Origin: Phoenix dactylifera
Taxonomy: Eukaryota; Streptophyta; Magnoliopsida; Arecales; Arecaceae
DNA: 64,000 nt
Direction of reading: 5' to 3'
Assembly (NCBI RefSeq): GCF_009389715.1
Contig: NC_052395.1
Coordinates: forward strand, 20,312,493 to 20,376,492
Shown: piece by piece, positions 10,531-47,591 of the stretch
Layout: each line of letters starts with the position of its first letter
Position numbering within the stretch: position 1 is the stretch's first letter
Program-made: the position numbers and the translations under genes
The notes under the pieces: generated by a model
Seen by the model: only the letters and a program-made list of their open reading frames with translations
What the model was told of the DNA's origin: nothing
Databases searched by the model: none

Positions 10531-10654
10531 TGTACAAGAATTCCATCACTAATATTGATGTCAATAAGCTAGCCCTACACCATATGCAAGGCATCATTTC
10601 TTATTTATTTATTTATTTTAACTATTGTTGAAATGCAACACATGTACCAAATTT

Positions 10655-17197: not shown

Positions 17198-20100
17198 TCA
17201 CTCACTGGTGTTAGGTGTGGTAGACTTGCTCACCCACTTGGCGGTAACAGAGTCGGGTGAGAATGGTGCAATGTTCTTGAGCAAGCCAGCATCATCACGG
17301 GCATCAGTCGCCCCTTCCTTCTCGGTCTTGCGACCCTCGCTCTCTATCTCTGTCAGCACCTCGAGGACCTCTCTAATGGGCGGCCTCATTTCTCCGTCCG
17401 ATTGCAAGCACCTGAAAGCCAGTTCCACGACCATGGTTATCATCTTCTTTGTCGCCCAATCCGACTGATACCCAAGATCCGGGTCGACCAGCTCGTCCAA
17501 CTGACAGTTCTGGATCTTGTTGATTGCCATGCTGGCCAAGTTGATCTCATGCCGGCGCCGCGTGATGTCGACGGCCGGCTTCGAGGATATGAGCTCGACC
17601 AGCACCACTCCAAAGCTATAGACATCACTTCTATCGGTGAGCTGGTAGCACTGGTGGTACTCAGGGTCCAGGTACCCCGGCGTGCCCTGAGGAGCGGTGG
17701 ACACATGGGTGGCATCAGTGGGAAAGAGACGTGAGAGCCCGAAATCAGCGACTTTTACATGGAAGCTGCCGTCGAGCAGAATGTTGTTTGTTTTGACATC
17801 GCGATGTATGATCGGTGGTTCGACGGCATGGAGGTAGGCGAGCGCATCCGCGGTCTCGATGGCGATGCTCAAACGCATAGGCCAGGTAAGAGAACGCTCG
17901 CTCGCTCGGGGCCCGTGAAGGTGGTCTGCGACGGTGCCATTGGGCACGAACTCGTACACGAGGAGGAGCTCGCGGCTGCGGCGGGAGGTGCAGCCGTAGA
18001 GGCTTACCAGGTTCTGGTGGCGGAGGCCGGACAGGATGGCGATCTCGTTCATGAACTGCTCGACCCGCTTGAAGTTGTTCTCGTATAAGCGTTTGACTGC
18101 AACAACGCGGCCGTCTCGGAGCTTTCCTGAAGAGAAAGAAGGCAGTGAGGCTAGCAGCAGGCACAAGCAAGGATGAAGAAGGGACAAAGGGGTTGCAGGT
18201 GCTCTGTTGGGAGCCATTTGGAGCTGCCGAGCAAGTACCTTTGTAGACGGTGCCAAAGCCTCCGTCACCGAGTTCTTTGGAGGAATCGAAGTGGTTCGTG
18301 GCCTCCTGGAGCTCCTCGTAGGTGAAGACATGGGTCTGGTAATGGATGCTGCCCAATTCAGGGTCCTTCGATGATGCCTCGAAGGAGGAATTCCGGATGA
18401 GGTCTTTGGAGGACGGGGAATGCTGCTTCCTCTTCTTGTACCTAAACCACAGAACGCAGAGGACGCCCGCTATGAGGACGACTCCGGCTCCAGCAGACAC
18501 ACCTGCTGTTCACAACAATACAAAAGCAGCAAGAGAACTAGTCAAAGGAGGAGAAATAGAAGAACAGAATTAAGAGCTCTGAATTGTTTCAATGCTTCAT
18601 TCACTGCTACAGGAGATTCACCAGCTCTTGGAACGAGCAAGCAGTCTTCTGGAGTGGATTGCTTCCCCCCTAAGAGAAGCAATCCTAAAGTCATGTCGTA
18701 ATTATCTTCTCCAAAAGCCTAGTGACTTGTTCACTGAAGAATACGAGTCCAATTTGTAAATCTCTACAAGCATTTCTTTCTAAAGAAAGCAATATTAACC
18801 TGCAATAATTCCTTAACAATTGCCTCCATCGATATGATTTTCTCTCTTTGATATTCTATGAAGCTCAATATATTGGATACGGATTATAGAATCCGAGATA
18901 GAAATAGGTTTAGGATCAGTGGAATTAAGCAATCAACTCGGCACAGCTTTAGCTTAGAACAATACAGCATCTTCTGTTTTGAACATTCAAACATGAGCAA
19001 ATCCATTGGCTTATGTATTTCCAAAGAACGTTTCCTCTTTTCTGTTATCCGAAATTAATGAGCCATAGTTTTTACCAAGATTTGTCATATCAGTTGCCAT
19101 TTATTGACCTGAATTCATTAGCGTCTTGCTTGCTCAAAACAAATATAAAAAAAGAATTCATCAGTGTATTTGGAAAAAGTTGATATTGGAATTGGCAAAA
19201 GAAAATTCAAATGAACAACTCCGGGAACACTGCATGCCTACCAATCAAATGGGCAACTGTTACTTCATTTGCAGTACAAATAAAGAAGCCTAAGATACGA
19301 TAATTCTCTTAAGAGATGGCAGGTAGAGATGTGTTACCTATTATAATCGTCTTCGTTTGTTTCTTACTTCCTGCGGCATCAGAAAACAATTACCTTCAAA
19401 CTGTTAGAAACTGATCACCATGATTAAAAGAAATACAATCACATCATCCACTTTTCTTTCTACATCCAATTGACAAATTAAATGACTATTTTTCATATAC
19501 AGGCCTTCACATAAACTATTTCTTCAAGAAAAAAAAGAAAAATAAACCAGAAAATATTGCTTAAGTTAGCAGCAAGTGATGCAAATTATAAAAGCATGAT
19601 TCAAGCTACTTCAACATTTACAGGTCAGAAAGCTGAGAGATGTCACTTTCTTTATCTTCACTGAATGACAACTTTCAGGCAAACTGATGGGGACTAGAGG
19701 TATAACAGTAAGCAGGAAGATCATGTTTCGGTCGATCCTTCAAATTTCATGGAACGAATATTAGATTATAGTCTTTGCAAAGAGTGGAACAATGGAACTT
19801 GTCAAGATATTCTGATAATCATGACCTCTCTGCTTGCAATTGAATACAGATTGCTTAAAGCTTATAAGTAGAGAAAGTTTGGTAATTTCGACATGATGGA
19901 TAGCGGAAGAGAAATTGTATAGGAAAAAAGTCGGATCCCCAAGAGATATAGCTGAGATTGAGGTCATTAATTATGCATGCCCCTTCAGGGTATGAGATAT
20001 TTTTCAGAGGGTAAAAGAACCCATGCCGATTGAATTGGATAATAGGTGTCTGATTGATACATTGGATGTAATGAAGTTTTCGGCATTCCAGACCTGTATT

Positions 20101-23100
20101 GTTTGTAAGGAAGGGGTATCTGATACAATGGTGAGATTTCCACAGTGAAACCTGGTTGTAGGACGTGAACAAACAAAGTTAGGAAGAAGTAGAAAAGGAG
20201 AAATGAAAAGGCAGGCATATGAAACAACAGAAACTATTCCAATCATATTTTCCTCCGCACAAAGTAAAAAAAGAAACTTCCAATATATCTTTAAGAAAAC
20301 CGTTAATGAGAAAGGGATTTGATTTTATGTAGCAGGGACAACTACCGACAGGACTAGCAGAGGGGTAAAGATTAAAGTGAACACAAAAGCAAGCCAACTA
20401 AATCCTATGCCGAGAAAGGGAGGATCCTAATGTCTGTGTTATCTATCCTGATTATTTGGGCTTGAAGAAGAGTTGGGTGAACTACGGAGAGAGAAAATGA
20501 ACAAGAGAAAGGTGTGAGAGCTCCTCACTTTTTCTTGCTGAGTGCATAATAAGCCTACTTGGGCCTCATGGAAATATGACCGTCAGAATGTATAATGTGT
20601 TTCTGGAGAGAGAATTTAGATGCATTGAACTGGTATCCAACAATATGGTTCTTTACTAAGATAATTTATAGATAGAGAAGAATAGAACCAAACAGATAAT
20701 AGGGAAGGAAACAAAATGGAAAATTTTTGCAATAATATGCACAGGATCAGGAAACAAGGAGTTTAAAACAAAAATTATATTAACTTAGTATTTCTTTCAC
20801 GGATTGGTCTATCAATTAGTGAAGATAAGCATGATGCTTAATGAGTAATTTGGTTTATTAGATGATAGTCTTGAGTCAAAGTCTTCCCAATTGTCTTTTT
20901 GCACCATGACTCTGTACATGTCACTTTCATTGAATAAGAAAATTTGTATTACATCTAATCTTACAGGAAGATGTTTGTTTGCATCCAGTTCTTACAGTTG
21001 ACTTGAGTGGAGAGTGAAAATGATCATAAAATCGATGAAAACAGAAGGTATTGGTTTTGAAGAACAGGAGAACATATGACACCATTTTCTATTTAAATTG
21101 TTTATGCTACATGGATGGGCAAGATACTAAAAGATATCAGAGCAATTACAGAGAATATAGACCAAGAAATTTTTTGAATATTCAATCAGCCCACAATTTT
21201 CAACAATTTGTTGGGGAAAAGCAATGATATCCCTAGAAGATAAAGTATAATATGAACAAATTTAAATATGCAAGTGAGTTACTTTTGGCAACACAATTTT
21301 ATTCATTGCATTATTTAGTGCAAATGTAACTATGGTATGAAAAAGTTAAAAAAAAATAATTAGAGGATAGAACTTTCAAATTAGATCTATCATGTAGCAT
21401 GCAAAAAGCATTATCGTTTCATGTGCTTTTCCATATTTTTTGATCCAAAAGCAATGGTCAAGTATATTAGTACTGCTCTGTATTATAAGAAAAATAAAAA
21501 TGATAGATTAGTTTCTTTTTACCCTACGATTCAGAACTCCTATCTCACAAAATTCACATTAACATGTGAAGTACTTCGGGCATATTACTAATACTAGATT
21601 TAATCCATGTCATTTCTCTAAGTCAGTGTAACTTCTCATTTATTTCTACTCTTTTCTGCTACGAAGTCTGTTTATTACTGTGACTCCTAGGAATCTCTTC
21701 CTGAAAGGGAAAAAAGGATAGTAGATAGCTCTTATTTTTTCAGTTCGAAGGTTTCTGCTATCTCTTGTGGCCGATTCAGGATTTAGATCACTCATTTCAA
21801 ATATCTGTTTATTGATTGATGACAGATGGTTCATGAATCAAACATTCAGATGAGAGAAAAATTTAAACATATATATCAAGCTTGATAATGACTATGTGTA
21901 GCCAGGCATAAACAATTGAAAAGGTTGAAGAACAAAAATAAAGAAGCAAAGAAAAGCAAAACAATTGGAAAGTAAATTTTAAAAGCCACGGAATAGGAAG
22001 TTGATTACAGTTAAATTCCATTAATAAAACTGACAACCAAAATAAAATACAGATCAAAGGGAAATTAAACTTTTACATCAACATAATATTTAGAAGTAGT
22101 TATGTGTTTCTTCCTTGATTCTATGATTTTGTTTTCACATTTCGAATGCCAGTACAATAGATCAACCAATTGATAATATAATATTTATAAACTAATAGTT
22201 TCTATTATCTGATAATTTTAGAGAACCAAGTTGGTTTCAGGGTTGGTAACTAAAACTACCTTATATCAACTAGGTATCAAGTAAGTTTAACTTCTGAATA
22301 ATTAAATACTACTAGTTATTAATATCGGATTGGGATCTGCCCAAGCTTTCCCTCAAGACAATACTACTAGTTACTTGTTGAATGTACATAAGTATTCTTC
22401 TATATGTCCACAACAGTTTTTCATTTTTTGTTATTGACACCATATATGAAGTGTCTTCTATGCAGCAGAAATGAAAAGCATACAAGAAACCATTTATATC
22501 TGTGATAGTTGTTTTTGTGGATTTTAACATTTAGACATCTGATACTTGGACATTGATGTCAGTCAGTTAGCAAGCAGAGTGCTTAATGGCAGAACTCATG
22601 GACTTCAATCAAAGAAACAGACAAATATCAATAGAAACATTTGAATGGAACAGGAACTGACAAGTGAGAAACAAGGTTATTAAGAAGATATTTGGTCATC
22701 AAATGAATAGAGAAACAGTCATGAGTAAAACAATACGGGAAAAGCCAACCAGACTTATCTCATGTGGTTGACATTCCTTCCTTTAATAGAGAGGTCCTAG
22801 GTTCTTCATCATATCTCTCTCATATATATACATATATATCTACACACACACACACACACATATATATAGCAAGAGGTCAAGAAAAATAAATCTTCTGTAG
22901 ACATGATATTGTCTACACCCTGTCATTATTATTATTCTTTTGAAAAGCATGCACACTCCACACAGAAACATATATAGACACAAACACTAAAGAAGAACTA
23001 TGTATGACCAAGAGGACCAAGCCATGAAGATTAAGTGTTTGACGGGGAATGCATGCTATGCTTATAAGATTGAAGATGCCAGAAGCAGAGAGGTTTTAGT

Positions 23101-24271
23101 CATGATCAAGGGCTTGGTTCCTAGGCTTGAAAACTGTCATGAAACATATAAAGGTATCAATTGATCAACCGAAACCAAGCAGCATCCAAGGAAATACTCC
23201 GAGATCAATAAACTAACTCATCTTCCCATCAATCTCTGTGAAATTCTTACAGCGGAACCGAACAGAAAGTAGTCTGAAAAATGACAACTTCCCAAGTGGG
23301 ATTGATCAGGGAAGATCCACATAAAATAGGCTTCTTGTCATTATATTTGTAGATGCCTAGGAGGAACCAGTCATAAATTGACCGCATGCATCAACCTTAT
23401 AAACTAAACCATGCCATGTATCTGCTACATCTTATGCTTCAAAATGTTCAAATTCGCATGTAAAGATATTATCAGCAGAGAACAAAGGAACTATAAAGTA
23501 ACATCTATCTTGCCATAATCCCTACACGAACTCCTTTAGGTGAGGTGAGGACTCACTGCAACTTCTCAGATGGCGTCTATCAGGGCAGATACACATGAAA
23601 CTCGCCGTGTTGTTATCATATCCACATTGGCCACCGCTTGTGCTGCACTCTGCGCAATCCTCTGCGGTCCAGTCCAACAAGAAACCATGCTTCAAAAGCT
23701 CCGCATAGTTACTGCTGACCATCCCAGAAACCAACACGGGCGCAATAACAGACTCGCACGTACTGTAAAAATTCAGCTGATCTCCGACGAAATACGCCGG
23801 CGTGATATCATTATGACAAGGTATTTCTTGGTAGTTGCGTGGCCTCTCCGAACAATTGAAGAGAAAGAAGAGACTCTTATTAGTTGAGTTAACACGAAAC
23901 AGGGTTCGGCCGAGCGTGAGATTGTAGCGTGGAAACGGGCAATCGCTGTCGAGGAAATCGGCTTGAGTGACAAGAAGTGATCTCCTATCGTAGAAGATAC
24001 GCTTAATACGATAGTCGCGGCCGAGGAGTTTAAGGACAGGGACGGAGCTGTTGCAGGTCACCAGAAAAGACGGAAACCCACAATAAGACGGGTGCTGATC
24101 CTGGATCCAGAACGGGTAGCTTATGTTTAAGCCATTCCCGCAGTTCTTTGGCTCACAGGCTTCTGCTGTTGGGTCGGCAGCAAAGACTGGCCCCTCTCTC
24201 AACAAAGAGGAGATGAGGAAGAAGAAGATAGAGAAGGACCCTTTGGATTGCAGTAAGATTCCGGGATTCAT
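17198..24271 (-). CDS. LRK10L1: LRK10L1-type receptor-like kinase (LEAF RUST 10 DISEASE-RESISTANCE LOCUS RECEPTOR-LIKE PROTEIN KINASE-like 1)
   Basis: Single-pass plasma-membrane receptor kinase, here joined from exons 23557-24271, 18239-18502 and 17198-18126 (1908 nt, 635 residues). Exon 1 has a signal peptide and the galacturonan-binding WAK domain (CEPKNCGNGLNISYPFW), then the WAK-associated C-terminal domain (CAECSTSGGQCGY). Exon 2 has the membrane span (GAGVVLIAGVLCVLWF) and the kinase start with glycine loop GDGGFGTVYKG. Exon 3 has VAVK (Lys about 338), HRDVKTNN (about 434-441), ADFG (Asp about 454) and GTPGYLDPEY, so it is an intact RD kinase. Splice phases agree: exon 1 ends phase 1 at GCA|GTGAGT and exon 2 opens phase 1. 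The three-exon plan is the usual one for this family. Intron 1 is 5054 nt and contains another receptor fragment. Which ectodomain exon is really spliced to the kinase is open; four more lie upstream. The family acts in wall sensing, ABA and pathogen responses. Confidence 0.85.
19855..20246 (-). pseudogene. Lr10-type receptor kinase ectodomain remnant (signal peptide plus GUB_WAK-like part)
   Basis: On the minus strand an ATG at about 20220 opens a hydrophobic leader (MPAFSFLLFYFFLTLFVHV). After a one-base frame slip the sequence continues as HHCIRYPFLTNNT, ECRKLHYIQCINQTP, FYPLKNISYPEGACIINDL and ends at a stop (19855-19857). The C...YPF start and the conserved ISYP...C.I.DL line are what remains of a galacturonan-binding WAK domain of the Lr10/LRK10L2 branch. 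It is clearly homologous, base by base, to the opposite-strand stretch at 53445-53650. It lacks the rest of the ectodomain and its own kinase, so it is most likely a broken gene. An exon that splices across the frame slip cannot be excluded. Confidence 0.6.
22820..22868 (+). repeat. TA/CA microsatellite
   Basis: An alternating (TA)n-(CA)n-(TA)n tract inside the long receptor intron. Confidence 0.85.
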
Positions 24272-25543
24272 CTTATTAGATGAAGAGAATAGAAGAGAAG
24301 AAGAGGAAGGGGAAGAAGAGTTGGAGAAGTGAAGTAGGTGGAGGGGTTCGTTCAGTGGGGTGATGATGTGACACGTTCCCCCTCCCCATTTCTAATTTTG
24401 GAAGTCGCCGTTTGACTAAGCCAACGAAACGGACTGAACAGACATAAAAAAAGAAAAAAAAATCAAAGGATTAGGATTTGGAAGAAGGAAAGGTCGATGC
24501 CGACAACGCGGGTTACTTTCTTTATCGGCTATTCTTGACCCTAATCTGAAACCTTTAACTTCTCCTGGGATACAGACAGAGATATCGGGGCACACAGTTG
24601 CCCGTCACCCACGATTATATGCATAGGTGTCATCACCATCGTCATTCCCAGCCTGATGATTATTTTATGATCAAGCTCAGCTTGACCCAGTCTAAGTCTA
24701 ATCAAAGTTGATTTAAAATTAATTGTAAGCTTAAAAATTCAGATTAGACTCGATTTATTTATTGTTATTTTAAGCTTGATTCAAGTTTAAATTCAAACCA
24801 AGCTAAACGGAAGCATCATTAATGGATGCATCTACAGATTGATTATTTGCAGCGCAAATATAAACATGGACATGAATAAAATAGTTAAACTTTATAAATC
24901 ATCAGATCAAAAATATCACTATATGAAAGATGATTTAAGTTCAAGATATTAAATTTGTCGCTTACTTTATTTCGAAGTTTATAATTAAAGATATATAAGA
25001 CCAAATAAGATTGCAGATATAATTTGGTATTCTAATAGATTGATACAAATCACATGATTGTCTAGTTATATTGGTATCTATTCTTTTTAAACCGATATGT
25101 ATATACAGATATGTTATTATTATCCAATGTTAAAATTTACCCAGTAATAAAAAGATGACTTGAATCAGAAAGACAATCTATTATACTACTTGGTCAAATA
25201 TCAATTACCTATAAATCAACAGGTAACAAGTGGACAATAAGAATCATAGAGGGCAATTTGTTAGGTTATTTTTCATCATGTCTTTATCAATCACCAATAG
25301 GCCCTGCGCTCTGCTCTGTCTCAGCCTCCTCTAAACCGAAACCAGTAAACTTAGAGATTCCGTGATCTTTTAGTTATCAGATTTCAAACCTTCAAATCCA
25401 TTTGAGCCTCTGGATCTGATTCTTTGAACATAACTTTTTGCCCACCGAATTAATATACTTGGTATTAGGAAGAAATAAGATGTAAACCAATGGATTTCAG
25501 GAGGGGGAGAGAGAGTGAGAGAGAGAAGCATCTAAAGGCATAC
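24272..25543. other. Spacer between two ectodomain exons
   Basis: No kinase or membrane exon is visible on the minus strand, although the exon at 25544-26342 would need one. The 24850-25010 part is a dispersed repeat also present at about 57190-57345. Confidence 0.5.
24850..25010 (+). repeat. Dispersed AT-rich repeat (second copy near 57190-57345)
   Basis: Shares words such as ATAGTTAAACTTTAT, ATTGTCGCTTA/TTTGTCGCTTA, and AAGAC(C/T)AA with the copy on the same strand at 57190-57345. The type of element is not known. Confidence 0.45.
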
Positions 25544-26342
25544 CGCTATTTCCTGAAAGACATGACCCAAGAGCCGGCCCATTAGGACAGTAGCAGGTAT
25601 GATCAGCTGGAGAGCTAAAATTATAACCACACCGCCCACCAGAACGGGCGCAATCACCGCACCACCCCCTCCCCGCCGCCCACTTCAAAATGAACCCCTC
25701 CTTTAATGCATCTCCAAAGCTCAAGTTCCCATTCCCCAGCCGCTCCGCTGCCGTTCGGCTCATCGGCACCAGCACCGTGGAGCTGCACTCGCCCAAGACG
25801 TCCACAAAACTTGTGTTGTCGAGCCTGTAGTAAGAGCGGCGCTGCCCAGCGACACCCAACGCGCAACCAATGTCATACAGCGTGGGGATCAAACTCAAGG
25901 CCGTGCAGTTGACATACAAAGTGACATTCTGATCGCGGTCGCAGTAATCGAAAAGGGAGGGATCGATGGTCGTGTTCTCATATGGTTCAGGGCATGACTG
26001 GCTGATGAGGCTCTGCTCCACGACGGTGAGCAAGTGGTTTAAGGTGTCGACGTCCTTCACCAGGTACCCCTTGTTGTTGATGCTGATCATTAGAGTGGTG
26101 TTGTTATGGCTGCAGTTGAGGTAGTAATTGGGGTGCCCGCAGTAGTCATGCCGGCCATCAACGTGGAAAGGGTAGCTTAGGTTGAATTTGATCTTGCCGC
26201 AACCATACACGACCGGTGCGCAATTCTCGTATCGGTGGTAGTAGCTTCCGGAGAAGGAAACCGGCAGCGATGATAATTTTAGGAAGAAGAGGATTGTCGC
26301 TAGGTGATGATGGAAGGGCATGAAGAGAGACGGGGGATGCAT
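25544..26342 (-). CDS. Stand-alone LRK10L ectodomain exon (GUB_WAK + WAK_assoc)
   Basis: Reads from ATG at 26340-26342 for 266 codons plus one base to a donor AGCG|GTATGC (25542-25543). It encodes a signal peptide (HHHLATILFFLKLSSLPVSF), a galacturonan-binding WAK domain (VYGCGKIKFNLSYPF, YCGHPNYYLNC) and a WAK-associated domain ending in CGDCARSGGRCGY and CYCPNG. Many N-glycosylation sites are present (NLS, NCS, NTT, NVT). It ends in phase 1, which fits the membrane/kinase exon at 18502. No kinase follows in the 1.3 kb before the next ectodomain exon. It diverges strongly from the others, closer to the CAPVVYGCG type. It could be an alternative first exon of the 17198 kinase, a secreted receptor fragment (reading on into the intron it stops at 25497), or a relic. 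Confidence 0.7.
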
Positions 26343-29300
26343 TCGGTTCGGTCGATGGTATTACCGAACCAGTGGATGGTATTAGCAAACCAACCGGAAC
26401 AAACTGGAGGAGGAAGAGGGGATAGAGATTGGAAGGTGAATGAGATCTACTCATTGTTAGAGGTCCATGAGTATATCACTTTCTAAGGTCTAACAAGTTG
26501 GGCGGAAAAGATGGTTGAACAGCCACGGCATGCTGTTCAAAGCTTTAACCCATAGTTTGGATCCTTCTTCTTGGAAGAAAAAGGAAGCAAAAATAATGAA
26601 AGATTCTAATGAGCGCGTTACCGTCGAGGAAGAGTTTACCAATAATGGCTTGCTCTTACGTCATGCCGTGGAGAATGGACTGCTTGGTTGTGGCCCTGGA
26701 AAGAGTCAACAAAGGTACAGGGACAGGCCCAAAGTTACAATTTTCTAGCTTGAAATTACAGAGCAGGCGACAGTTTTGCACCCGGTCCAGATAGGCGGCA
26801 GGGAACAGGTAGCAAACGTGATGTCTTCAAATCATGGCGTCTTAACATCCGTCGTATGCATATATTTCCCTCTGCACTTTTTTGTCCTTAACATGCTTAT
26901 TTTGACCGAATTATGTATATTAATTAGACATGATAATGTTTTAATATCAACAGTAGCTAAGCAAGAACACGATCGACTGATTCTGTTCTGCTCAGTTTAT
27001 ATTTGACTTGCAGTAGATTTCACCCATTCCAAATGAAATACTAACCAAGTGCTTGCTATAACAATAACCTCAAGGATGAGCAGATTTGGGGCATTGTTTA
27101 CAATCACTCAGAATCAGCTGGGACTGCCAAACAACAGTCCCAGCTCGGCCAACGAAAGGCCCCACCTAATGTTTGGTCCGCATGCCACTATGATTCAATC
27201 AAGTAGAGTTTAACAATCATACTGAGAGGATGACAAGAGGATTCTGTAACCCGGGATAAAGGACAGGAAATAAGAACCAAAAGAGAAGCATAAGTGGCTA
27301 CGAGTTTCTTTTCTGAACAGACTTGATTTCTACCAATCTTATTATCTTTCAGTCTACAAAGAGTGTGCCTCGGGCGACCTACATACGGTAGCTGTTTATG
27401 CTACTACGAGTATATGCCCAGCAAATTCAGCCAAGCACAGAAAAGTGATCAGATGGCTGAGCTGCACCTTTTAGCTGCCTTCTAAATTTGTCATCTAATG
27501 AGCAAATTATGTAATTCAGAACATCCTATAGTATGATTTAAGGACTTCCAGAATATTGTAGCCTAAGAGTCGGGTAAAAGAGAAGCAGGAACATCGACGC
27601 CCTTCATCTATAACTGTTTCCTTTCGTTTTCAACATATCATGGCCTAAACACTTATGAGTTCCTAGCTAGCAGCCACAGTTCAAGAAATTTTACTCCAGT
27701 TTTTATCCAGTTTGAACCGTGGTCCCTTGCAAGATTGCCCAGTTTGCAGTTACATCCGGGATTAAGTAAACTGTTCCAATAAAACATCATGCAGATAGGG
27801 ACATCGACAATTTACTGCTACTAATTACGGTTCTTGAAATCCCACTAGATCAGTTTCATCTACTTCCACACTTTGCACTTATTTTCATTTATAAGGTCTA
27901 GTCAAGTATAAAATGATCTGCCATGCCATATCTATTGTAGTTATTAAATAAACTCTTCTAGAGCTTTTCATAGATATGCACCATCCTTCAACTGCCTGTA
28001 GTAACCTTTGATTTAGATTCATCTAATTTGGTTACTTTAATTGAATATTTTACTTATGGACCACACGATACTTGAGATAATCAGCCTTTAGAAGTTTTAT
28101 AGCAAATATATATTCCTTATAGCTATGGGCTAACTACTCTCTAGTATAATATGCTACCAGCTTTTCATCATCCTAGAAGCCATTCACCAACAGTGTCAGG
28201 AGCATGGGGAAGCTGGATGATGGTTGTTTTGACCAGAAATCTCTTTGTTTAGTCATTGTCTATGATAGTGATGTTGCAGCTAATGTAGTTTCTAATATCT
28301 AATCTCTGCTTCTTAGCTCTATCTACGTTGAATTTATTTCTATATCTGCCTAGGTCTCCTTAGTCAAAGAATTCTTTGGTAAGTTATTGCTTAACAAATG
28401 ACCACGCCTCCTACAAAGGGGGTCCTTTTCTTTGTTCAGTTTCCTAGAAGCTACTGTCTCTATGGAGCTGACTTAGTACTAATTTGTCTATCTCCACTCT
28501 CCAATATAAAGATTACCTTCGCAGAAACATGAGGTTATTCAAAACTAGTTCACAGTACATCCTAATAAAAATCTCTTCATCTTTGAAGACTTCAAAGCAG
28601 AAGGTTTTGTTGGTTATTTATTTCCTATTAGGTGTAATCTTCATTCTAAAGTCATTCATTGCAGAATAGAAAATTAGTCATCGCGCATAGAAGGCTTGAG
28701 GAATCAATCTAGCTGCAACTCGTCTATGACTAATTCACCTCTACAATTCAAACGAGCACCACAATACAGTGTTCCTAGCCCTTAAATACGCACTAACTCT
28801 TCGAGCTCATTTACTCATTTATTTGTCAGCCACATGCGAGTGCTACTTAGCTGATAATTGAAATTTGCTTTACCAAGAAACAAATCCATGATAATTACCT
28901 TTCCTACACACATGCTACGTAGTCTGGAAATTTACCCTTGCATAAAATTTTTGCTTGATAACCATTAACCATTGCCAAAGTCCAACTGTATTGCATTTAT
29001 AAGCTACGTGAAAACTTTTTTCTTAACCTATTAGTGGATGTAACTCCTTACCTTTTGCAAAGCATTGCCCTAGCTAATAAACACCTAAGGAACTTTAAAA
29101 CACATGTAACAAAAAAAAAATGGGAGTACAACATTTGTAATACAAATCTAGCCCAGAAATCGAAATAAAAAATCTTTTGTTCATCCAAAATAAAAGAAAA
29201 GCTTCACTACCTGCAAGGGAAAAGGAATGGATCAGGAGGGTTGGAAATAGAAACATGAATCAAGCACTGCTGTGTAAGTGGCAGTGGAAACTCTTCAATA

Positions 29301-30248
29301 ATGATGCTGGACTTTGGAAGCAACTATTCTATTTTGTGTCCCCTATCAACCATATAGTTTCTGAAATTCCATGTCCCTAGTCTTACAGAAGAGTTCACAG
29401 TTTTGGAAGGCACAAGCAGAGATATGGAGATTTTTTCCTACCAGGCAGCTGTTTCAAGGCGGGAATTCCGAATGCAACCTGATGTTGGCTCAAAATGTGG
29501 GCAGGGCGGTGCTTGTTTGCTTCTCTATTCCCAGGTCTGTTCAATATTATTTCTTTTACTGAAGCCAGGGTCCCTAATTGCTGGAACTGAAATGGGTGGC
29601 AACTCTGCTTCAACCAAGGGAACTGAGCTTGTGAAGGAGGATGCTTGTAAATTATACAATATTCAGTGGAGAGAACGTAAGTGACTCTTCATGATCCAGT
29701 CACTTGGAGATGGTTCAGGGATGCTAGTTTCTCAACCAAGTCTAGTTCTGCATTCGTTAATTGGATTGAGAAAGATTTAGCAGCCCTTAGGATACTGTAA
29801 ATCCTAAAGAAATCCTGGAAACAAGATGGGATGTTGCAACTCTTTTTCTAGGTAATAGACTCAATAAAATCTGTTACCTTAATGGATCATAGAATTTGAT
29901 TGGGCTCTGCCCAATTTTTCTTACTAAACGGAGAAACAGAAATCATGGACCTGCATGATTGAATTCTCAGCAGCCAATGGTCAGAAAGTAATTTTTCTGA
30001 GGGAAGAAGAAAAAATATCACTGGTAACCCATCATCTTTGTGACACACCAGGCATGAAGTTTCTCCACCTACTACTATTCTATTCGGTTCAACTCTCGTT
30101 TTCCCTTGTTCCTTCAGAAGAAAAAAAAACCTATTGTTTTCCACTGAACCGGTCAGAAGAGGATTTGCTGAGGCCCCTCTCTCTCAGGCTCCCATTTTTG
30201 ACTTCCAAATTGAACTCTTTTAAAGCGGAATCCCTGATCTGTCCTCTA
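26343..30248. other. Intergenic 3.9 kb; one LINE scrap, no gene recognised
   Basis: AT-rich and without conserved frames apart from the LINE fragment at about 29180-29360. I looked on the minus strand for a kinase or membrane exon belonging to the ectodomain exon at 30428-31280 and found none. Confidence 0.5.
29180..29380 (+). mobile_element. LINE reverse-transcriptase scrap
   Basis: The frame reads RNMNQALLCKWQWKLFNNDAGLWKQLF, the pattern N-x-ALL-x-KW-x-W-x-L that follows the reverse transcriptase in plant LINE ORF2. It is only about 60 codons long and has stops beyond. It is a different family from the two larger LINEs here. Confidence 0.55.
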
Positions 30249-30427
30249 GGCTTAGAGGTCAGCATACGTTCGCGTTCCAGCTCCCAGCCGGCCATTGGTC
30301 TAAATTGACCAAATCCACCAAGAAACAAGACCAAAAAAAAAAAAAATCCACCAAGAAACAAGAGGAAAAAAAAGGGAAGGCAGCAGCAATAACAAAAAGA
30401 GGGGGGGTAAAACGATCGACAACATAC

Positions 30428-31280
30428 CGCAAAGGCGGTCGCTCACTCCGTTGGAGCAAAAGCAGGCGAGGGACAAACTCGTCGGGGTTGTCTGGTACCC
30501 GCAGAGCCCGCCGGAGAGCTCGCAGCGATAGCACTCTTCCAATGTCTTGTTAGACCAGCCCAGCTGGAAGCCTTTCTTCAACACCCCTCCAAAGTCACTA
30601 GACAAAGCGCTCAAGTTTCCCCCGTTCGCCTCCTGAGAGAGGACCGGCGCCACCACAATATCTTGGCACTGCCGGACCAAATCGTATTCGTTGATGGCCG
30701 ACAAATCATCGTCGGTGAAGATGTAAGACGAGTTACCGCTGCTTCCGGAAAGGCAGGTTATTCGGTGGTCCGATGGACCGTCGGAGCAGTCGAGAAAGAA
30801 GGTGAGGTTGGTGTCCAAGGAGGTGTAGTTCAGGTAGGAGGTGTAGTTCAGGTTCATGAGGGCGAGGCTGGGGTCCGAGGTGGTGTAGTTCAGGAAGAAG
30901 TTGTTGAGGAGCGTGAGGTTGCGCCGGGGCCTGGGGCAGGTTCCGGCGGCGAGGACATCCGTGTCGACAAGGGAGATGGTTTGGTTGTTGTAATCGACGT
31001 CGGTCACGGTATAATTGTTGCGGCCGAGAGAAAGGATTGGGGTGTCATTTTGGCATATCAGCACAAATCCTGGGTACCCACAGTAGGTGGAAGGGATAGT
31101 GGATAGATTTGGAGCTAGCCAGAATGGGTAAGCGATATCCTGTTTGCCGCAGGTCGAGTTCGGACAGAATCGGGTCGGGGGGTTGTTCCCAGGGTAAGCG
31201 TTGGTGGAGACGAGGAGGGATAAGAGGAAGAGGAGGAAGATGAGGAGGGGAGGAGGTGATGAGGGGATTCTACAAGGCAT
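30428..31280 (-). CDS. Stand-alone LRK10L ectodomain exon, MPCRI type, copy A
   Basis: The ATG at 31278-31280 opens MPCRIPSSPPPLLIFLLFLL, a signal peptide. The galacturonan-binding WAK domain follows (CGKQDIAYPFWL, YCGYPGFVLIC), then a sequon-rich stretch of repeated NYTS units, then the WAK-associated domain (CYRCELSGGLCGY, CFCSNG). There are 284 codons plus one base, ending at donor TGCG|GTATGT (30426-30427), phase 1. If the intron is not removed the frame runs to 30300 and adds a strongly hydrophobic tail (VLPPLFLLLLLPSLFFPLV). No kinase is visible downstream before the next ectodomain exon. It is a close paralogue of 32542-33400 and of the frame starting at 63825. Role: extracellular wall or pathogen ligand sensing in this family. 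Whether it is expressed is unknown. Confidence 0.72.
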
Positions 31281-31895
31281 GGGTGCTACTGGGTGGATTT
31301 AGGGGTACGAGCGTTGAAAGCAAGGTCAGGCCGTCGGCTTTTGGCGGGTTTTTGCAGGAGGATCATGGTGGCGGGAACCGTGGCTACGCGCATCCCCTTG
31401 GGAGAATTCAGAGGGGGTTCTGACTTTCCAGCCGAGATATTTAGTGCGGTCTAATCAAATTGTAATTACCTAATGGTCCTTTTTAAAAAAAAAACGGTGA
31501 CCAATCACCGCACGTCTTATTTATAAACAAATAAAATTAAAAACTTAAAATTAAAAAAATAAAGAAAAGAAGATGGAAGAAAAAACTGGAGAGCTGAACC
31601 GGTCTAAGAATAAAGAAGCCCAATCAAAAAGAACAAAAAAAATCAAACCATCCATAGAATAATCCTAGTTCAAAATGACCGCTAGCTTGGACCAACTTTC
31701 CAAGATGCATGCGTAGCTGGGTCATCATTTCAAAACTCGCGATCGAGTAAGGTTCCTCCCGTGGGCTTTTCGTAAAAGAACGTGTTGGGGTCGGAGATTG
31801 TCCCCCATGCGTGAGCAGAAGCCTCGACTGCCTGCGCCTCCATCCAACTGGACTCTATCTAGCTGGCTTTCTATAAAAAATTATGAATGGGGACA
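31281..31895 (-). promoter_or_regulatory. Upstream region of ectodomain exon A
   Basis: The 120 bp before the ATG are nearly the same as before 33400, and share a shorter GCTGAAAG/GTTGAAAGCAAGGC block with the exon at 37886. Conservation outside the coding region suggests each ectodomain exon carries its own promoter. No TATA box was assigned. Confidence 0.4.
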
Positions 31896-32361
31896 CAAAT
31901 ATAAAGAAGTGAAGTCCCTAGATTTTTCGATGATATCCACTAGATAGAAGTATGATGTTGGTGTCTTACTCTTTTTTCATTATCATTGCATTGTCTTTTA
32001 CATTTAGAAGTGGAATTTCTATTTTAAGTAAAATGATGTCAAACTTTAGCGGAATTTCTACGGTTATCCTTTTGATGCAAGATTGTTTAAAAATGGGTGC
32101 AGGATTGGATAGCAACATATATTTCTGTTCATACAGGAGTTATATTATGGATGTTTGTAATAATTTTCTTTCTTAATTATTAGATATTTTATTTTCAGAC
32201 TTTTATAGATGTATCTATTCTAGAGTTGTTTCATGAATTCGAATTTACCCAGTAAAAAAATGAATCTATGGAATGGAATAAACTATTTTGTGTGATGATG
32301 CTATGCTAATATGCTCTTAATTTTGGACTAGTCGCTAGCGGTGACTTCCAAAATGAATCTA

Positions 32362-34052
32362 GGCCTAGCGGTCAGCATACGTTCGCGTTCCGGCTCTCAG
32401 TCGGCCATTGGTCTAAATTGACCAAATCCACCAAGAAACAAGACCAAAAGAAAAAAAAAAAATCACCAAGAAACAAGCGAAAAAAAAGGGGAAGGCAGCG
32501 GCAATAACAAAAAGAGGGGGGTACAACGATCGACAACATACCGCAATGGCCGTCGGTCACTCCGTTGGAGCAAAAGCAGGCGAGGGACAAACTCGTGTTG
32601 GTTGTCCGGTACCCGCAGCGCCCGCCAGAGAGCTCGCAGCGATAGCACACTTCCAATGTCTCGACTGACCAGCCCAGCTGGAAGCCTTTCTTCAACACCC
32701 CTCCAAAGTCACTAGCCAAAGCGCTCAAGTTCCCCCTGTTCACCTCCTGAGAGAGGACCGGCACTACCACAATATCTTGGCACTGCAGCACCAAATCGTA
32801 TTCGTTGATGGCCGACAGATCATCGTCGGTGATGATGTAAGACCGGTTACTGCTGCTTCCGGAAAGGCAGGTTATTCGGCGGTCCGGTGGACCGTCGGGG
32901 CAGTCGAGAAAGAAGGTGAGGTCGGTGTCCAGGGAGGTGTAGTTCAGGTTGGGGGTGCAGTTCAGGTTGGAGGTGTAGTTCAGGAAGAAGATGTCCGAGG
33001 TGTTGTAGTTCAGGAATAAGGTGGCCATGAGGGTGAGGTTGTGCCGGGGCCTGGGGCAGGTTCCGTCGGCGAGGACATCCGTGTCGGCAAGGGAGATGTG
33101 TTGGTTGTGGTAATCGATGTCGGTCACGGTATAATTGTTGTGGCCGAGAGAAAGGATTGGGGTGTCATCTTGGCATATCAGCACAAATCCTGGGTACCCA
33201 CAGTAGGTGGAAGGGATGCTGGATAGATTTGAAGCTAGCCAGAATGGGTAAGTGATATCCTGTTTGCCGCAGGTCCAGTTCGGACAGAATCGGGTCGGGG
33301 GGTTGTTCCCAGGGTAAGCGTTGGTGGAGATGAGGAGGGATAGGAGGAAGAGGAGGAAGATGAGGAGGGGAGGAGGTGATGAGGGGATTCTACAAGGCAT
33401 GGGTGCTACTGGGTGGATTTAGGGGTACGAGCGTTGAAAGCAAGGCCAGGCCGTCGGCTTTTGTGGGGGTTTTGTAGGAGGATCATGGTGGCGGGAACCG
33501 TGACTGCGCGATCCCCTTGCTTGTGAACTTGTTGGGAGAATTCAGAGGGGGTTCTAACTTTCCAACCGAGATATTTAGTGCGGTCTAATCAAATTGTAAT
33601 TACCAAATGGACCTTAAAAACAAAACAAAACAAAACAAAACGGTGACCAATCACCGCACGTCTTATTTATAAACAAAATAAAATAAAAAAACTTAAAATT
33701 TTTAAAAAAAATAAAGAAAAGAAGAAGGAAGAAAAAACTGGAGAGCAGAACCAGTCTAAGAGTAAAGAAGCCCCAGTCAAAAAGAACAAAAAAATCAAAC
33801 CATGCATAGAATAATCCTAGTTCAAAATGACCGCTAGCTTAGCTAGACCAACTTTCCAAGATGCATGCCTTGTTGGGTCGTCATTTCAAAACTCGCGATC
33901 GAGTGAGTTTCCGTCCGGTGGGCTTTTCGTAAAAGAATGTATTGGGGTCAGAGATTGTCCCCCATGCGCGAGCAGAAGCCTCGCCTGCCTGCGTCTCCAT
34001 CCAACTGGACTCTATCTAGCTGGCTTTCTATTAAAAATTACGAATGGGGATC
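32362..34052 (-). repeat. Tandem duplicate, copy B, carrying an ectodomain exon
   Basis: Partner of 30249-31895. The promoter-distal end is followed by a further partial copy of the GGGGATCAGAGATTGTCC...CCAGCTGGCTTTTCGTAAAAG segment (about 34050-34155), so the duplication process has acted more than once. Confidence 0.75.
32542..33400 (-). CDS. Stand-alone LRK10L ectodomain exon, MPCRI type, copy B
   Basis: The ATG at 33398-33400 opens the same signal peptide as copy A. There are 286 codons plus one base to donor TGCG|GTATGT (32540-32541), phase 1. The domain order is the same: galacturonan-binding WAK domain (CGKQDITYPFWL, YCGYPGFVLIC) and WAK-associated domain (CYRCELSGGRCGY, CFCSNG). It differs from copy A mainly in the number and spacing of NYTS-type glycosylation repeats (here with NCT and NYT additions) and in scattered substitutions. 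With intron retention the frame runs to 32372 and adds an aromatic hydrophobic tail. It has no kinase of its own, and all frame-critical cysteines are kept, so it is not obviously dead. Confidence 0.72.
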
Positions 34053-36599
34053 AGAGATCGTTCCTCCCTTTGTAGACCGAAGCCTCACCAACCAGTTGGA
34101 TTCCATCCAGCTGGCTTTTCGTAAAAGAATGAAGAGGGATCAGAGATTGTCCTCCAAACTTCACTTGCCTTCCCCTCTACTATACTGCAGAATAAAAAAA
34201 ATATCTTTCAACCAGTTTTTTTTTAGTGAGAACTTAGATTGGTGCGAGTAATACTAGCAAATTTGGACCCATGACTCATTTGGATTATCATGTTCACCTA
34301 AAATCCAAGCAAAGCAAGAGGTCCACTAAATTATTCAAAGTATGGGCTTCTTGTGAGATGTCGAGATCAAGTTGATACTAATAAAAATATAATTTTTTTC
34401 TCCTCTCTCTCTCTCTCTCTATCTCTATCTCTCCATCTCTATCTCTCTTTCTGTCTTCTCTTTCATTTATCTTTTTCAATACAGCCTAGGTCCGGAATAC
34501 GTTCCAAAGGACAGCCACGATGGGCCTTTTATAAATTCAAGAGAGACCTTTTTTGCAACTTTCCTTGGGCATGGGGACTAAGCATCAAGTGAGATCGGAT
34601 TCCACTTACCAGCAAGCGACCTGAGACCAACTTGGACCATTTTTTTTTGGGTGGGGATAACTGATAAGGTGGCAAGAATACACGGCACTCCGACTCTTTT
34701 AGTGACATGGCATTGAAGTCACTCTTCTCTTCCATTAGGGTGAAGTACTTATTTTTCAGAAAAATGGCAAAACATCAAATCCATTAGACAAAATATATGA
34801 AGGGATGACAACTGAATCTCTTTACTCGGAGACAGAACAAAAAGAAAAGCCAGATGGTAGATTTTGTTTTGCTGCAATTTGGTAACAAAGGCCAATAAAG
34901 TTGGCGGTTGGAAGCTCTTTAATTGTGGGGAAATGATTAATTGGTGCAGCAATACAATGACTCATAACAAAGGGTGAAAGGTCTAACAAAAGATTGAAGG
35001 GTTTTTTTTATTGAGAGAAACAACATAATAGTTGAAATTTAACAGGCTTTGGATCTGGCAACCATGGTTCTAATAAAAAAGAATGCTTGGTCATGCTGGA
35101 AAACAGAAAACATTCATTATGGGCCGCTATCTGTTAATTAACAAACAATTAGAGTAGTGCTGTGACATGGAGGATCGAGAGAGATTTATTAGTGGATCTC
35201 AGTATCCTACAATCCTTATAAAGAATCCTAGAAACAAGATGACCTTGCAAAGGAATTACAATATCCCATAGATCGAGTTATGCATTCAGAGACTCTAGAC
35301 TTACTGAAGTCTACTACCTTGTTGAAATGATTGAATTTGATAGGGAGACGCCCATTTTTTTGAACAACAACGAAAAAAAAAAGTTTGGTAACTCAGAAAA
35401 ATTGCTCGAAAAAATCACTCAGCTGTCTTCCACCATTCATGTTGCTTCATTATGTGGCACAATAAAAATGCAACAAGAACACACAACACCAGCTGAGTGA
35501 TTTTTTGAGTTACTAAAGCATTTTTGTGAAAACAAGCATACAAACAAGCAGCTTTGTGACATGGTCGCCATTTTGATAGGCTTCTGCTGCACTCGTATCT
35601 ACCGTGAGGGCAACAAGGAGACGACCGTTCTGTTGCTATAGCTACAGCCATACACTCACCAAGATTTTGGATGTCTGACTTTGCTCCATTGATTGCTCTT
35701 TAATTTCAGGCAGTTGTTTTGGTTGTACCCTCTTTCGTTAAAACAATAAACAAACAAACCGACAGACAAAAACATACGTCGCTAAGATTGAATTTCCAGT
35801 ATTGGTTAAATCTGCCCGGTTGAATAAGGAATAAAATGCTCAAAGGCTATTTCCTGCTACAGTACAGTACTTACAGATCTCTTATATTTGAAAAGAAGGA
35901 ATGTGCATGGTAAGAATCACAATGCTATTTTGGTTGGAAGCTAAAAAAAATTCTCACGGCCATTCGTGAGGCTATATTTTATATAGAATGGAAGGAGGAG
36001 TTTGGGTGGATTCATGCAAGAATCTATTTTGAGTCCGAAACTCTCCAAATCATGCGATAGCTATAGAGATTCAGAATATTATTAGGATGATAAGACCCGC
36101 GGGGACTCAATCAAAAACTTGAGGCACGAGTAGTTGAATTCAAATAAGGTTGCAAGTTGGGTCAGTTGAGTGCAAAACTTAACTTTACTCCATATCTCCC
36201 AAATATATATAATCCAACCCGATCTGAACTCAAGTTGAGATTTCTCTAATCCAAACTAACTTAATTTCTATTTTAAACAAAATTCGAGTTGGGTCAAGCT
36301 AGTCATATCAGGTTGTGTCAGAGTTGGATCACATTACTTAGATAACATACAACTGAATAGAAATTTTAAGATAGAGATGGAAGGGTTTCAAATATTTTTA
36401 TTGGGCCAAATTTATGGGATCGAAGAATCAACAATTCATTAATTATGATATATCATATTCAAAGTATAACATAAGTTAAATAAATAAATCTAATTTATCT
36501 ATTTATTTATATATTGAGTCGGACCAGGCTAAGTTAGGCTGGGTTGAGTTTGAGCTGGACTAGCATGGAATTTGAGTTGGCTTGAAGACGAATCCTAAT
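34053..36599. other. Intergenic 2.5 kb; microsatellite, no gene recognised
   Basis: Contains a CT-rich microsatellite at about 34401-34460 and AT-rich filler. Short open frames show no conserved motif. The part from 36100 has GAGTTGGGTTGAG/AAATTTAAATT words typical of decayed dispersed repeats. Confidence 0.45.
34401..34460 (+). repeat. CT microsatellite
   Basis: (CT)n with interspersed ATCT units. Confidence 0.8.
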
Positions 36600-36880
36600 C
36601 CAATTCTATTTCAGATTGATTTGAAATTTTTAGGTTTAAATTTGATTTAAATTTACAAAATTTTAATCTAATTCAATCTAATAAATAGGTTGGATAGATG
36701 GGTTCTGCTTGAGATCAACCTAGCTAGGCCGCATAAAACTTTCCTCAAAGTTGGAATTTGTGGCTTCATGAGATAACAGCAAGGTGGGTGTCACGCGGTC
36801 TTCTTTTCACAATGAAATCACCATCGCGCTATCACGTCTGCAAGGCAGCAGACGTGAAGTTTCTGGGCGACCGAGTCTAC

Positions 36881-36907
36881 CTTTTTTTTTTTTTTTTTTT
36901 TTTTTTT
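36881..36907 (+). repeat. Poly(T) tract in the inverted-repeat arm
   Basis: A run of about 27 T, matched by a poly(A) run at about 48711-48740 in the other arm. It marks where arm identity begins to fall. Confidence 0.85.
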
Positions 36908-37084
36908 CTAGGCTCTTTTTCGCTCTTTTGACTCCTAGTTTTGACTAATAGAACTCATTTACAAGCACGCGATGTAGCTGTGAACCATCCATTGGTCCAG
37001 ACTTCACCAAATCTATGAGTAAAGAAACAAGACAACATGGTAGGTAGCAGTAAAGAGGAAAGGGTTTGAAGGAGGACAACGTAC

Positions 37085-37886
37085 CGCAACTGTGGTCGCG
37101 CATCACGCCGGAGCAGAAGCAGGCGAACACCCAACTAGTGCTGTTTGGTTGGGTATAGCCGCAGCGCCCGCCGGAGCTCTCGCAGCGGTCGCATGCTCCC
37201 GAGATCTCGTCGGGCCAGCGCAGCTGGAAGCCGTTCTTCAACAGCTCTCCGAAGTCACCGAGCAAATGGCTCCAAATATCACTGAGCGGCGGATCATTGA
37301 GGACGGGCACCACCACTATACCTTGACACCGCTGCGCCAAATTGTATTCTATGGCGGTCGAAAGATATTCGTCGGTGAATATGTAGGACGACTTACCACT
37401 GCTGCCTGGAAGGCTGCAGTTTATTTTGTTGTCGATTAGAACGTCTCCGAAGGAGCAATTGAGGAAGAAGGTGAGGTTGATGTCCCAGGAGGTGTAGTCG
37501 AGGACGGAGTTGCCCTCGAAGGAGAGGTTGTGTCTGGGCCAGGGACAGATGCCAGCGTCGAGGAAATCGGTGTCGGCAATTGAGAAGGTTCGGGTGGGGT
37601 AATCGATCTTGGTCACGGTGTAGTTGTGGGAGCCGAGGGAAAGGATTAGGCGGTCATCATCTTCGCATATCAGCATAAATCCTTCATTACCGCAGTAGGA
37701 GGTGGGATTCTGGTGTACCCAGAATGGATAAGTAATAAGTTGTTTGCCACAGGTCGCCGAGTTTGGACAGGATGAGGTTGCGGGGCTGTTCGTGACAGGG
37801 GAACCGTTGATGGAGATTAGGAGGAGGAGGAGGAAGACGATGGAGATGAGGAGGGGAGAAGGTGATGAGAGGATTCTACAAGGCAT
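37085..37886 (-). CDS. Stand-alone LRK10L ectodomain exon in the left inverted-repeat arm
   Basis: The ATG at 37884-37886 opens MPCRILSSPSPLLISIVFLL, a signal peptide. The galacturonan-binding WAK domain (CGKQLITYPFWV, YCGNEGFMLIC) and the WAK-associated domain (CDRCESSGGRCGY, CFCSG) follow. There are 267 codons plus one base, then donor TGCG|GTACGT (37083-37084), phase 1. The frame can run on to 36945 if the intron is kept. Its deduced protein differs from the plus-strand copy at 47731 by one residue (Asp versus Tyr in TKI-D/Y-YPTRTF). It lies about 18.6 kb upstream of the only minus-strand kinase. It could be a distal alternative first exon, a secreted or tethered decoy, or a relic. Confidence 0.72.
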
Positions 37887-38027
37887 GGTTCCGTGGCTGT
37901 GATGCAGGAGTATGAGCGCTGAAAGAAAGGCTTGGCCCTCGGATACTTTTAGGAGAACAATGGAAGGCGGGCGTCTTGACTTGGTGCTTCACTGCTTGCT
38001 GGAAAGATATGCCCATCGCCCTTGGCT

Positions 38028-39361: not shown

Positions 39362-39391
39362 ATGGGCTGAAAGAAAGAGACGAGGTGTGAT

Positions 39392-39416
39392 GGGGGTGGG
39401 GGGGGGGGGGGGGGGG
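39392..39416 (+). repeat. G-rich tract at the LINE 5' end
   Basis: GGGGGTG followed by an uninterrupted run of about 18 G. Confidence 0.85.
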
Positions 39417-39433
39417 TTAGTGCTTCAAAGTTC

Positions 39434-40954: not shown

Positions 40955-41879
40955 CCCAGCTTGGAGAGGTCCGAACTCGGGGCCCGTGGAGCATGGCACA
41001 GCACATAAGGCACGGGTTCCTTCCGTGCCACCCGTGCCAGGCCTGGCCGACCGGAGGAGGGGGGCCGAATGGCGGAGGTTCCGGAGCCGGAGCCTTTCAC
41101 CGGCGGTCCTGTGGGCCCCTCGGCGGCGGCAGAGGGCGATAGGGGAGGCGGTGTCACTGATGGCCGTCGCGGAGGCTTGGGGGAACCGGCAACTTCTCAA
41201 AGAGACAAGGCACAGCTGGCTGGAAAGGTGGCTCCCTCCCAGACGACGGCGACGGCGGTTCCGGTGGACGGTGTGGGTGGCGTTCGGATAGGGGCGGAGC
41301 TGGTATCCGGATCGTTGGTGGCGAGGGCGGAGCAAATGAGCAAGGTTCCCCCTGAGGTGGGGTCACGGCAGGATGAGGAGCTCCCTGGTAACGGGGGTAT
41401 GGCGGCGCCGGCGATGGTCATGCTGGATGGGGCGGCAACGAAGGGGCAAGGTGGTGGCGCATCGGGGTCCGTTGATGGACAGGGACCCGGCAAGGGGAAG
41501 GCGCCATTGGCTGGGACGGTGCCTCTTCCAGAGGCTAAACCGTGCCATATGGCACGCTCAACCGACCACGGGCCGCCCCTCACTGCACCAAACTTGACGA
41601 AGCCTTTATCTGGGGAATCCAGCAGCGGTGGCAGGGGACTACTTCATGAAGAGCAGGAGGAAAATTCCATGGTTTCAGGGGCGCACTGTGTGGACCCTGC
41701 GTGCCGTTTGGCACAGGGAACAGTAACACTGAGAACCATTTGAAAATCCTGCAGCATCTGATGGCTGCGGTGAAGGATGTGGATCCTGGTGAATTGACGA
41801 AAGGAGGTGCTCCGGTGGTGGAGGCAACTCGTGGCAGCAGCCCCGGGGGTGTGGGTTGTGCCGTTCAGCTGTGTGATCC

Positions 41880-46545: not shown

Positions 46546-47591
46546 AAAAAAGATCTACTAATCTTCACAGGTCAATATAAATCTTGCAGCATGTGTGCCT
46601 AACAATGCTTTGCTCCTCGTAATTAACAAAGAATTCCCAACCCTGAATTGGTTAGCAAACACAATCCCTGCGGGGTAGTAGATGTACTGAAAAACTCCCG
46701 TATTTACCTCAAATACACCTTTGAGCAATATAAGTGCACAATCATGCTCATCAATAGCCGGTTATGAGTAAACTTGACCAACATTTGCATTTTAAACAAA
46801 CCCCACGTCTAAATTGGTCTAGAAAAACTAGGATTTTGTATGGTTCATCATGTATTTTTAAAGATATCATTATGATTTATAATTCACATCTTTTTAAACA
46901 ATGAAAGAGCCTTTTTTATCCGCAAAATCTCCTAGCTCGATCTATATGCTTTAGGATATATAAAAATTACATTTCATCTAACGTGTATATTTTTAGACCA
47001 CATATCAAATCAAAATGTATTAACATGCCGCTATTTTTTTTTATTTATTTTGCATCCATTTAATACATGAATAAATTATCTCAAAAGTGTAAACTTTATT
47101 TTTGCATCAAAGCATTATATATATTTTAGATAATGGACAACAATGTAGATTTTATTTTGAGAGATATTGATTCTTATTGAAAAACATTTGGTGCCAAATG
47201 CTATAAATACATTCTAGCCCAACCCAACTAATATTTATCTAATATTTATAAGTCTTCTTGCCATGTCCTAGAAATTTTATGGTATTTAAATTATCAATTC
47301 TTTATAGAAAAAGAAATTTTAATTTTTACTAGCTATTCATTATTTTATATATTATTAAAAATGACATATGAGAAAAGTTTAAGATTCTTCGAATTAGTCT
47401 ATTCAATTATAAGAGAAGGCTTGGTTCTGAATCTAATCATTTACTTATCACTCAAAGCAAACTTGAGCTGAAATTTGAACTGAACAAGAGCTAGCTCATC
47501 AACAGTTCACCCGTTTGACAACCCAAGAACTAGTTTCTTGCGGACAATTCTCACCCTCTTTCGTCGAAGCCAACATAAGGCCAAAGATGGG
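46546..47591. other. AT-rich spacer; no gene seen
   Basis: Low-complexity AT-rich sequence between the LINE scrap and the right inverted-repeat arm. No conserved frame was seen. Confidence 0.5.

Follow-up and report, generated by a model that had tools for sequence, protein, structure and literature searches.

This analysis concerns a stretch of 64,000 nucleotides (nt) of the Phoenix dactylifera genome, referred to here as the window (C4:20312493-20376492, on the contig labelled C4; other contigs are labelled C2, C8, C9, C22 and C39), in a searched genome of 773 Mb and 2,391 contigs. Its minus strand carries an LRK10L1-type receptor kinase, termed K1, with a series of ectodomain exons upstream. 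The sequence suggests that these exons probably form one receptor kinase gene, in which tandem ectodomain exons serve as alternative first exons. A second LRK10-like kinase family, termed K2, is present on the plus strand.

Constant exons of K1

The constant part of K1 consists of three exons. The kinase exon (17198-18126, minus strand) includes the stop codon and matches Pfam Pkinase/PK_Tyr_Ser-Thr. It is preceded by a transmembrane (TM)/juxtamembrane exon (18239-18502, minus strand), which is in phase 1 at both ends and has the C-terminal sequence FGTVYK(G). The TM segment, seen by eye on the exon translation, lies ahead of the Ser/Thr kinase domain assigned by Pfam. Between the ectodomain exons and the TM exon, a pattern scan detects a 33-nt micro-exon (19338-19370, minus strand; RSKKQTKTIIIG) of phase 1-1, and the same type of scan finds phase 1-1 micro-exon candidates of 33-36 nt at 4/4 K1 loci. 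Because both ends are in phase 1, inclusion or skipping of the micro-exon preserves the reading frame. A preliminary description of the locus correctly recognized a single membrane/kinase exon pair but missed this third constant exon.

Ectodomain exons upstream of K1

Five intact ectodomain exons are found on the minus strand upstream of these constant exons: A (23557-24271, donor GTGAGT), B (25544-26342, donor GTATGC), C (30428-31280, donor GTATGT), D (32542-33400, donor GTATGT) and E (37085-37886, donor GTACGT). Each runs from an ATG to a phase-1 donor with no internal stop, comprises 238-286 codons plus one base, and can be joined in frame to the constant exons with or without the micro-exon. 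The isoforms predicted from A-E have 646-694 amino acids with the micro-exon and 11 fewer without it. GUB_WAK_bind and WAK_assoc score over the Pfam cut-offs in 5/5 exons, and the N-termini are hydrophobic and, judged by eye, are predicted to be signal peptides. The exon boundaries, the open frames and the match between five phase-1 donors and the TM exon are thus exactly as first described. The claim that each exon has its own ATG and signal peptide holds firmly for the ATG, and as a by-eye prediction for the signal peptide.

A sixth ectodomain exon, overlooked when five were counted, lies closest to the kinase (~19645-20223, minus strand). This proximal (prox) exon contains several in-frame stops and is dead. 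In an alignment of 13 chosen ectodomain cassettes, from which two members of a related array on contig C8 (B1 and E-like) and the prox class were left out, 14 cysteines are invariant. The donors sit close after the last cysteine, in a position that has been kept. A sequence search of the PDB with ectodomain C as the query found no relative, the single match having an E-value of 0.9.

The ectodomain exons are not interspersed with kinases, as had been noted at the outset. Across 24-47 kb of the window, tblastn finds no kinase or TM match (E-value up to 0.001), hidden Markov models find no kinase match in open frames of at least 40 amino acids, and DNA comparison finds no match to the kinase region (E-value up to 1e-10).

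Rarity of the arrangement in the genome

K1-like kinases (77% identity or more; other listed matches reach at most 53%) occur in at least four places, one each on C4 and C8 and a further two on C9, and the best four TM-exon matches fall in the same four places. The kinase and ectodomain lists behind these counts are lower bounds, the K1 kinase search having scored the best 128 of 1,818 candidates.

To count ectodomains per kinase, 72 listed GUB_WAK_bind matches were compared with 82 (K1 query) and 26 (K2 query) listed kinase matches, with the kinase required downstream on the same strand. Within 25 kb, 53/72 listed ectodomains find a kinase, and the 19 that have no listed kinase were excluded from the count. 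Among the 46 kinases paired in this way, 44 have one ectodomain, while the present locus has 5 and the C8 K1 locus has 4. The latter counts as 4 since the prox exons of K1 loci escaped the Pfam model. At a distance of 10 kb, 40/42 kinases have a single ectodomain, and at 40 kb 46/48 do; the exceptions are always the C4 and C8 K1 loci. The five-ectodomain layout is real, rare in this genome and apparently old.

Elsewhere, on C39, GUB_WAK_bind exons occur three times in tight divergent pairs (772715/773734, 851574/852614 and 1121803/1122848), and in 2/3 pairs no listed kinase lies within 25 kb of the plus-strand member.

A parallel array on C8 and the K1 loci on C9

The C8 K1 gene has its own series of ectodomain exons upstream, on the same strand and with no intervening kinase, in the order prox, A, B1, B2, E-like. 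The K1 loci of C4 and C8 therefore have the class order prox-A-B-C/D/E in common, the C4 prox exon being dead. A tree of 24 ectodomains groups C4 and C8 members together by class, with support of 100% for A, 96% for B, 100% for prox, and 100% for C/D/E with the C8 E-like exon. An assembly artefact was considered as a source of the C4 arrangement and was rejected in view of the same arrangement, with diverged sequence, on C8. At both loci the K1 array stands head to head with a plus-strand K2 cluster.

The C4 and C8 K1 kinases differ at a synonymous divergence (Ks) of 1.41, a value that may be inflated by a GC content at third codon positions of 0.73 in the C4 copy as against 0.59, and their ratio of nonsynonymous divergence (Ka) to Ks is 0.08. 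The C8 and C9 K1 kinases are closer (Ks 0.36-0.40). Subject to the compositional caveat, the layout shared by C4 and C8 is old because the kinases are so far apart.

At C8 and at both C9 loci (C9a and C9b) the prox exon has an open frame and a phase-1 donor, and the B-class pieces near the C9 K1 genes are broken. Also on C9, at 13792.7-13793.5 kb (L025), is a B-class ectodomain whose frame is broken close to the end and for which the nearest listed downstream kinase is a K2, ~14 kb off.

Duplication of ectodomain cassettes and the K2 cluster

The units that have been duplicated at this locus are small. The unit of C (30245-31893, minus strand) matches that of D (32358-34050, minus strand) at 90.0% over 1,696 columns, and each unit comprises the exon, ~600 bp upstream and ~180 bp downstream, with the kinase not included. 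The unit of E (36600-38026, minus strand) has an inverted copy at 47591-49023 on the plus strand, 98.1% identical over 1,433 columns. The copy contains an intact ectodomain exon, E' (47731-48532, plus strand), which is 99.8% identical to E and faces a K2 kinase. The inverted pair E and E' thus places one ectodomain with two kinase families. On C8, the prox cassette and an opposite-strand copy (C8:5781586-5783365 and 5835687-5837468) are 93.8% identical over 1.8 kb, and the B2 cassette and its opposite-strand copy (C8:5789554-5791577 and 5845730-5847733) are 90.7% identical over 2.0 kb. From the extents of the C/D, E/E' and C8 prox and B2 matches, it follows that the copied cassettes measure 1.4-2 kb and leave the kinase exons behind, and that copying also takes place between the K1 array and the K2 side. 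In the two C8 pairs (loci L018, L019, L023 and L024) the opposite-strand copies are recent and lie on the K2 side, and Ka/Ks of the exons exceeds 1.

The K2 gene of the window lies on the plus strand. Upstream of it, in order, are E', a broken copy of ectodomain A (49218-49673), a broken copy of the proximal ectodomain (53453-53644), both detected by DNA match, and a 36-nt micro-exon candidate (54504-54539) found by pattern scan. An open frame with TM and kinase follows (55673-56725; Pfam and sequence matches). At the end of the window, a truncated copy of a C-class ectodomain begins (63815-64000, plus strand, by DNA match) and continues in L050. Listed K2 matches, which are lower bounds, number 7 on C4, of which one contains a stop, and 4 on C8.

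The plus-strand ectodomains of C4 were read from short stretches and some 3-kb loci. Six A/B-class copies were found there, all broken; one of them (L048) has 96.4% DNA identity to A, another (L047) was covered from B residue 83 on, and two shorter A pieces in L046 and L049 are excluded from the six. Of the C/E class, five copies are intact (E', L041, L043, L044 and L045) and two are partial (L042 and L050). The C8 plus strand has A, B and prox members as well, such that ectodomain classes are common to K1 and K2 genes.

Two further stretches of the window (10632-13006 and 39371-42288, plus strand) contain long open frames that resemble non-LTR retrotransposons, with reverse-transcriptase-like, RNase-H-like and zinc-knuckle-like features by eye.

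Selection and retention of open frames

The exons of C and D differ at 71/853 aligned sites and by one 6-nt insertion or deletion (indel). Their flanks have 6 indels in 600 nt upstream, 5 of which are not multiples of three, and 4 indels in 275 aligned nt downstream, 3 of which are not. A neutral simulation with 72 random substitutions and the indel rate of the flanks gives a probability of 0.0004-0.0008 that an exon of this kind would show no frameshift and 0.11-0.16 that it would show no stop.

Recent cassette pairs also change rapidly at the protein level. Ka/Ks is 1.53 for C and D, 0.84-1.53 across all ten pairwise comparisons of five C-class cassettes, 1.15 for E and its relative at 20438k, 1.26 for the C8 B2 pair and 2.06 for the C8 prox pair. 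For E and E' it is 0.29, a value from two changes. More diverged ectodomain pairs have Ka/Ks of ~0.26-0.69, and the comparison of A with the plus-strand A copy of C8 is saturated. On C9, young kinase pairs have Ka/Ks of 0.21-0.40 and the prox pair has 0.80. Fast residue change with kept frames and cysteines would fit sensors under diversifying or weak constraint. Positive selection on C and D was considered as a firm claim and rejected, as the ratio of 1.53 rests on 12.5 synonymous changes.

A probable array of alternative first exons

In the proposed mechanism, each ectodomain exon would have its own promoter, start codon and predicted signal peptide. From its phase-1 donor, splicing would lead to the shared micro-exon and the TM exon, or straight to the TM exon, and then on to the kinase exon. 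Ectodomain exons that lie inside a longer transcript would be passed over in splicing, since a first exon requires no acceptor. The outcome would be at least five receptors of 646-694 amino acids with one common cytoplasmic kinase, with a possible role in sensing ligands derived from the cell wall or from pathogens. New sensors would arise by the copying of an exon and its upstream flank as a cassette.

The exons do not share equally in this proposal. On C4 the kinase is constrained and its prox exon is dead, which means that it needs another ectodomain. Exons A and B appear to be the best-supported K1 exons, since they are intact in the array and their plus-strand copies are broken. The use of C, D and E with K1 is less certain, because their classes adjoin K2 kinases in the same cluster.

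Several observations weigh against an array of alternative first exons. We infer both the junctions that join A-E to K1 and the working promoters from the sequence. Within 400 nt upstream of the ATG, A, C and D have one TATA-like motif each and B and E have none; shuffles that keep base composition yield at least one such motif in 24-62% of trials, and the real exons are no richer. The joining of E would require an intron of ~17.7 kb. A match in donor phase is expected from shared ancestry, and it was rejected as proof of splicing and is weak evidence because related exons that face K2 kinases also have phase-1 donors. On C8, intact plus-strand copies of A and B adjoin K2 kinases, and the contrast between intact and broken A and B copies is therefore limited to C4. 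In addition, the C8 E-like exon lacks a donor at the usual place, with a phase-1 GTACGT persisting further on, the usual CGY motif is missing in C8 B1, and each C9 K1 locus has one intact ectodomain (prox) among those found. The relics upstream of the window's K2 gene mirror the K1 array, and K2 genes may formerly have carried several ectodomains each, in which case there need be nothing special about the K1 array. The nearest relatives of C, D and E are plus-strand cassettes beside K2 kinases, and these exons may be shared with that cluster or be recent passengers from it. Finally, Ka/Ks near or above 1 in recent cassette pairs would also fit relaxed constraint, and gene conversion among copies could keep their frames open.

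The strongest rival explanation, which nonetheless seems unlikely, builds on some of these points. It holds that splicing to the kinase is confined to the nearest exons, A and possibly B, and that C, D and E are recent copies that are stranded and have not yet decayed. The proximity of D to a plus-strand cassette at 20458k (Ka 0.047, Ks 0.048), the near identity of E and E' and the presence of C/D/E classes beside K2 kinases in the cluster all fit this explanation. Against it, an exon of the C/D/E class also stands at the distal end of the C8 array, albeit with an altered donor, and C and D have kept their frame, their donor and the invariant cysteines, in contrast to their flanks, which have acquired frame-breaking indels.

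It is considerably less probable that the distal exons encode independent secreted ectodomain proteins that end in the first intron, as SLG does relative to SRK. An in-frame stop does occur 11-56 codons beyond the donor in each of A-E (after 11 codons in A, 15 in B, 42 in C, 56 in D and 46 in E), such that a secreted protein would result from translation of an unspliced message. However, A-E lack the conservation of the C-terminal tail and of its stop beyond the donor that would be expected of an SLG-like orphan protein. The tails of C and D are 76% identical, with indels of 1, 2, 12 and 10 nt, whereas the donors are kept close after the last cysteine. This explanation is disfavoured because the tails are not conserved.

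Least probable of all is tandem duplication of whole genes followed by deletion of the other kinase exons, leaving non-functional ectodomains; tandem arrays of whole ectodomain-kinase genes do exist elsewhere in the genome (e.g., on C2 and C22), but the lack of kinase matches within 24-47 kb and the small size of the duplicated units, the youngest on the minus strand (C/D) being a 1.7-kb cassette without a kinase, disfavour it, as do five of five intact frames.

The preliminary description had proposed an alternative-first-exon array. Layout, rarity, the C8 parallel, cassette duplication and the kept frames and donors all favour that proposal, although the phase match contributes little to it and C-E are less certain members. 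A fuller version of the same reading, to which we give a modest preference, is that the locus is an ancient ordered array of ectodomain first exons, similar to those of the protocadherin and UGT1A loci, that serves one set of LRK10L1 kinase exons. Its promoter-bearing cassettes would diversify rapidly and swap with K2 genes, and sensors and kinases would evolve as separate modules.

If this is correct, the plant would widen its sensing with no duplication of the signalling kinase, since a shared receptor would gain promoter-bearing ectodomain cassettes. The convergence of different extracellular inputs on one cytoplasmic output through promoter choice would become testable. Moreover, gene models that assign one first exon to each kinase would miss the greater part of the receptor repertoire of such loci.

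Comparison with known systems

In vertebrates, the protocadherin and UGT1A clusters have a row of variable first exons with phase-compatible donors and separate promoters ahead of one constant set of exons. The present locus is similar in its tandem variable first exons, its compatible donors and, presumably, a promoter for each variable exon. The proteins are unrelated, however, the variable exons are far fewer, and promoter choice and splicing are predictions here.

At the S locus of the Brassicaceae (SRK/SLG), the ectodomain exon of a receptor has been duplicated without its kinase. The ectodomain exon has likewise been duplicated without the kinase here, but the exons face one kinase in cis, their donors are kept and the stops beyond the donors are not conserved.

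Within the date palm genome itself, K2 genes resemble K1 in their ectodomain classes (A, B, C/E and prox), their phase-1 donors and, in the window's K2 gene, a micro-exon candidate. Unlike K1, they have one detected GUB_WAK_bind exon per paired kinase, with further ectodomain relics upstream of the window's K2.

The closest comparison is with Arabidopsis LRK10L1 (AtLRK10L1, At1g18390). This gene reportedly has alternatively spliced mini-exons, and the 33-nt micro-exon described here apparently matches one of them. According to two reports, it produces two transcripts, LRK10L1.1 and LRK10L1.2, from distinct promoters (PMC10573068, PMC12479429), which bears out the alternative promoters initially invoked for it. 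Both loci therefore involve an LRK10-type receptor and one kinase gene, the Arabidopsis gene having two transcripts and two promoters. They differ in that five intact ectodomains are present here and their cassettes have been duplicated apart from the kinase. Among titles and abstract openings, with few subscription journals covered, an array of multiple ectodomain exons on one plant kinase is not described, which is weak evidence of absence. The best reading of the comparison is that the date palm locus would represent an enlarged form of the two-promoter arrangement of AtLRK10L1.

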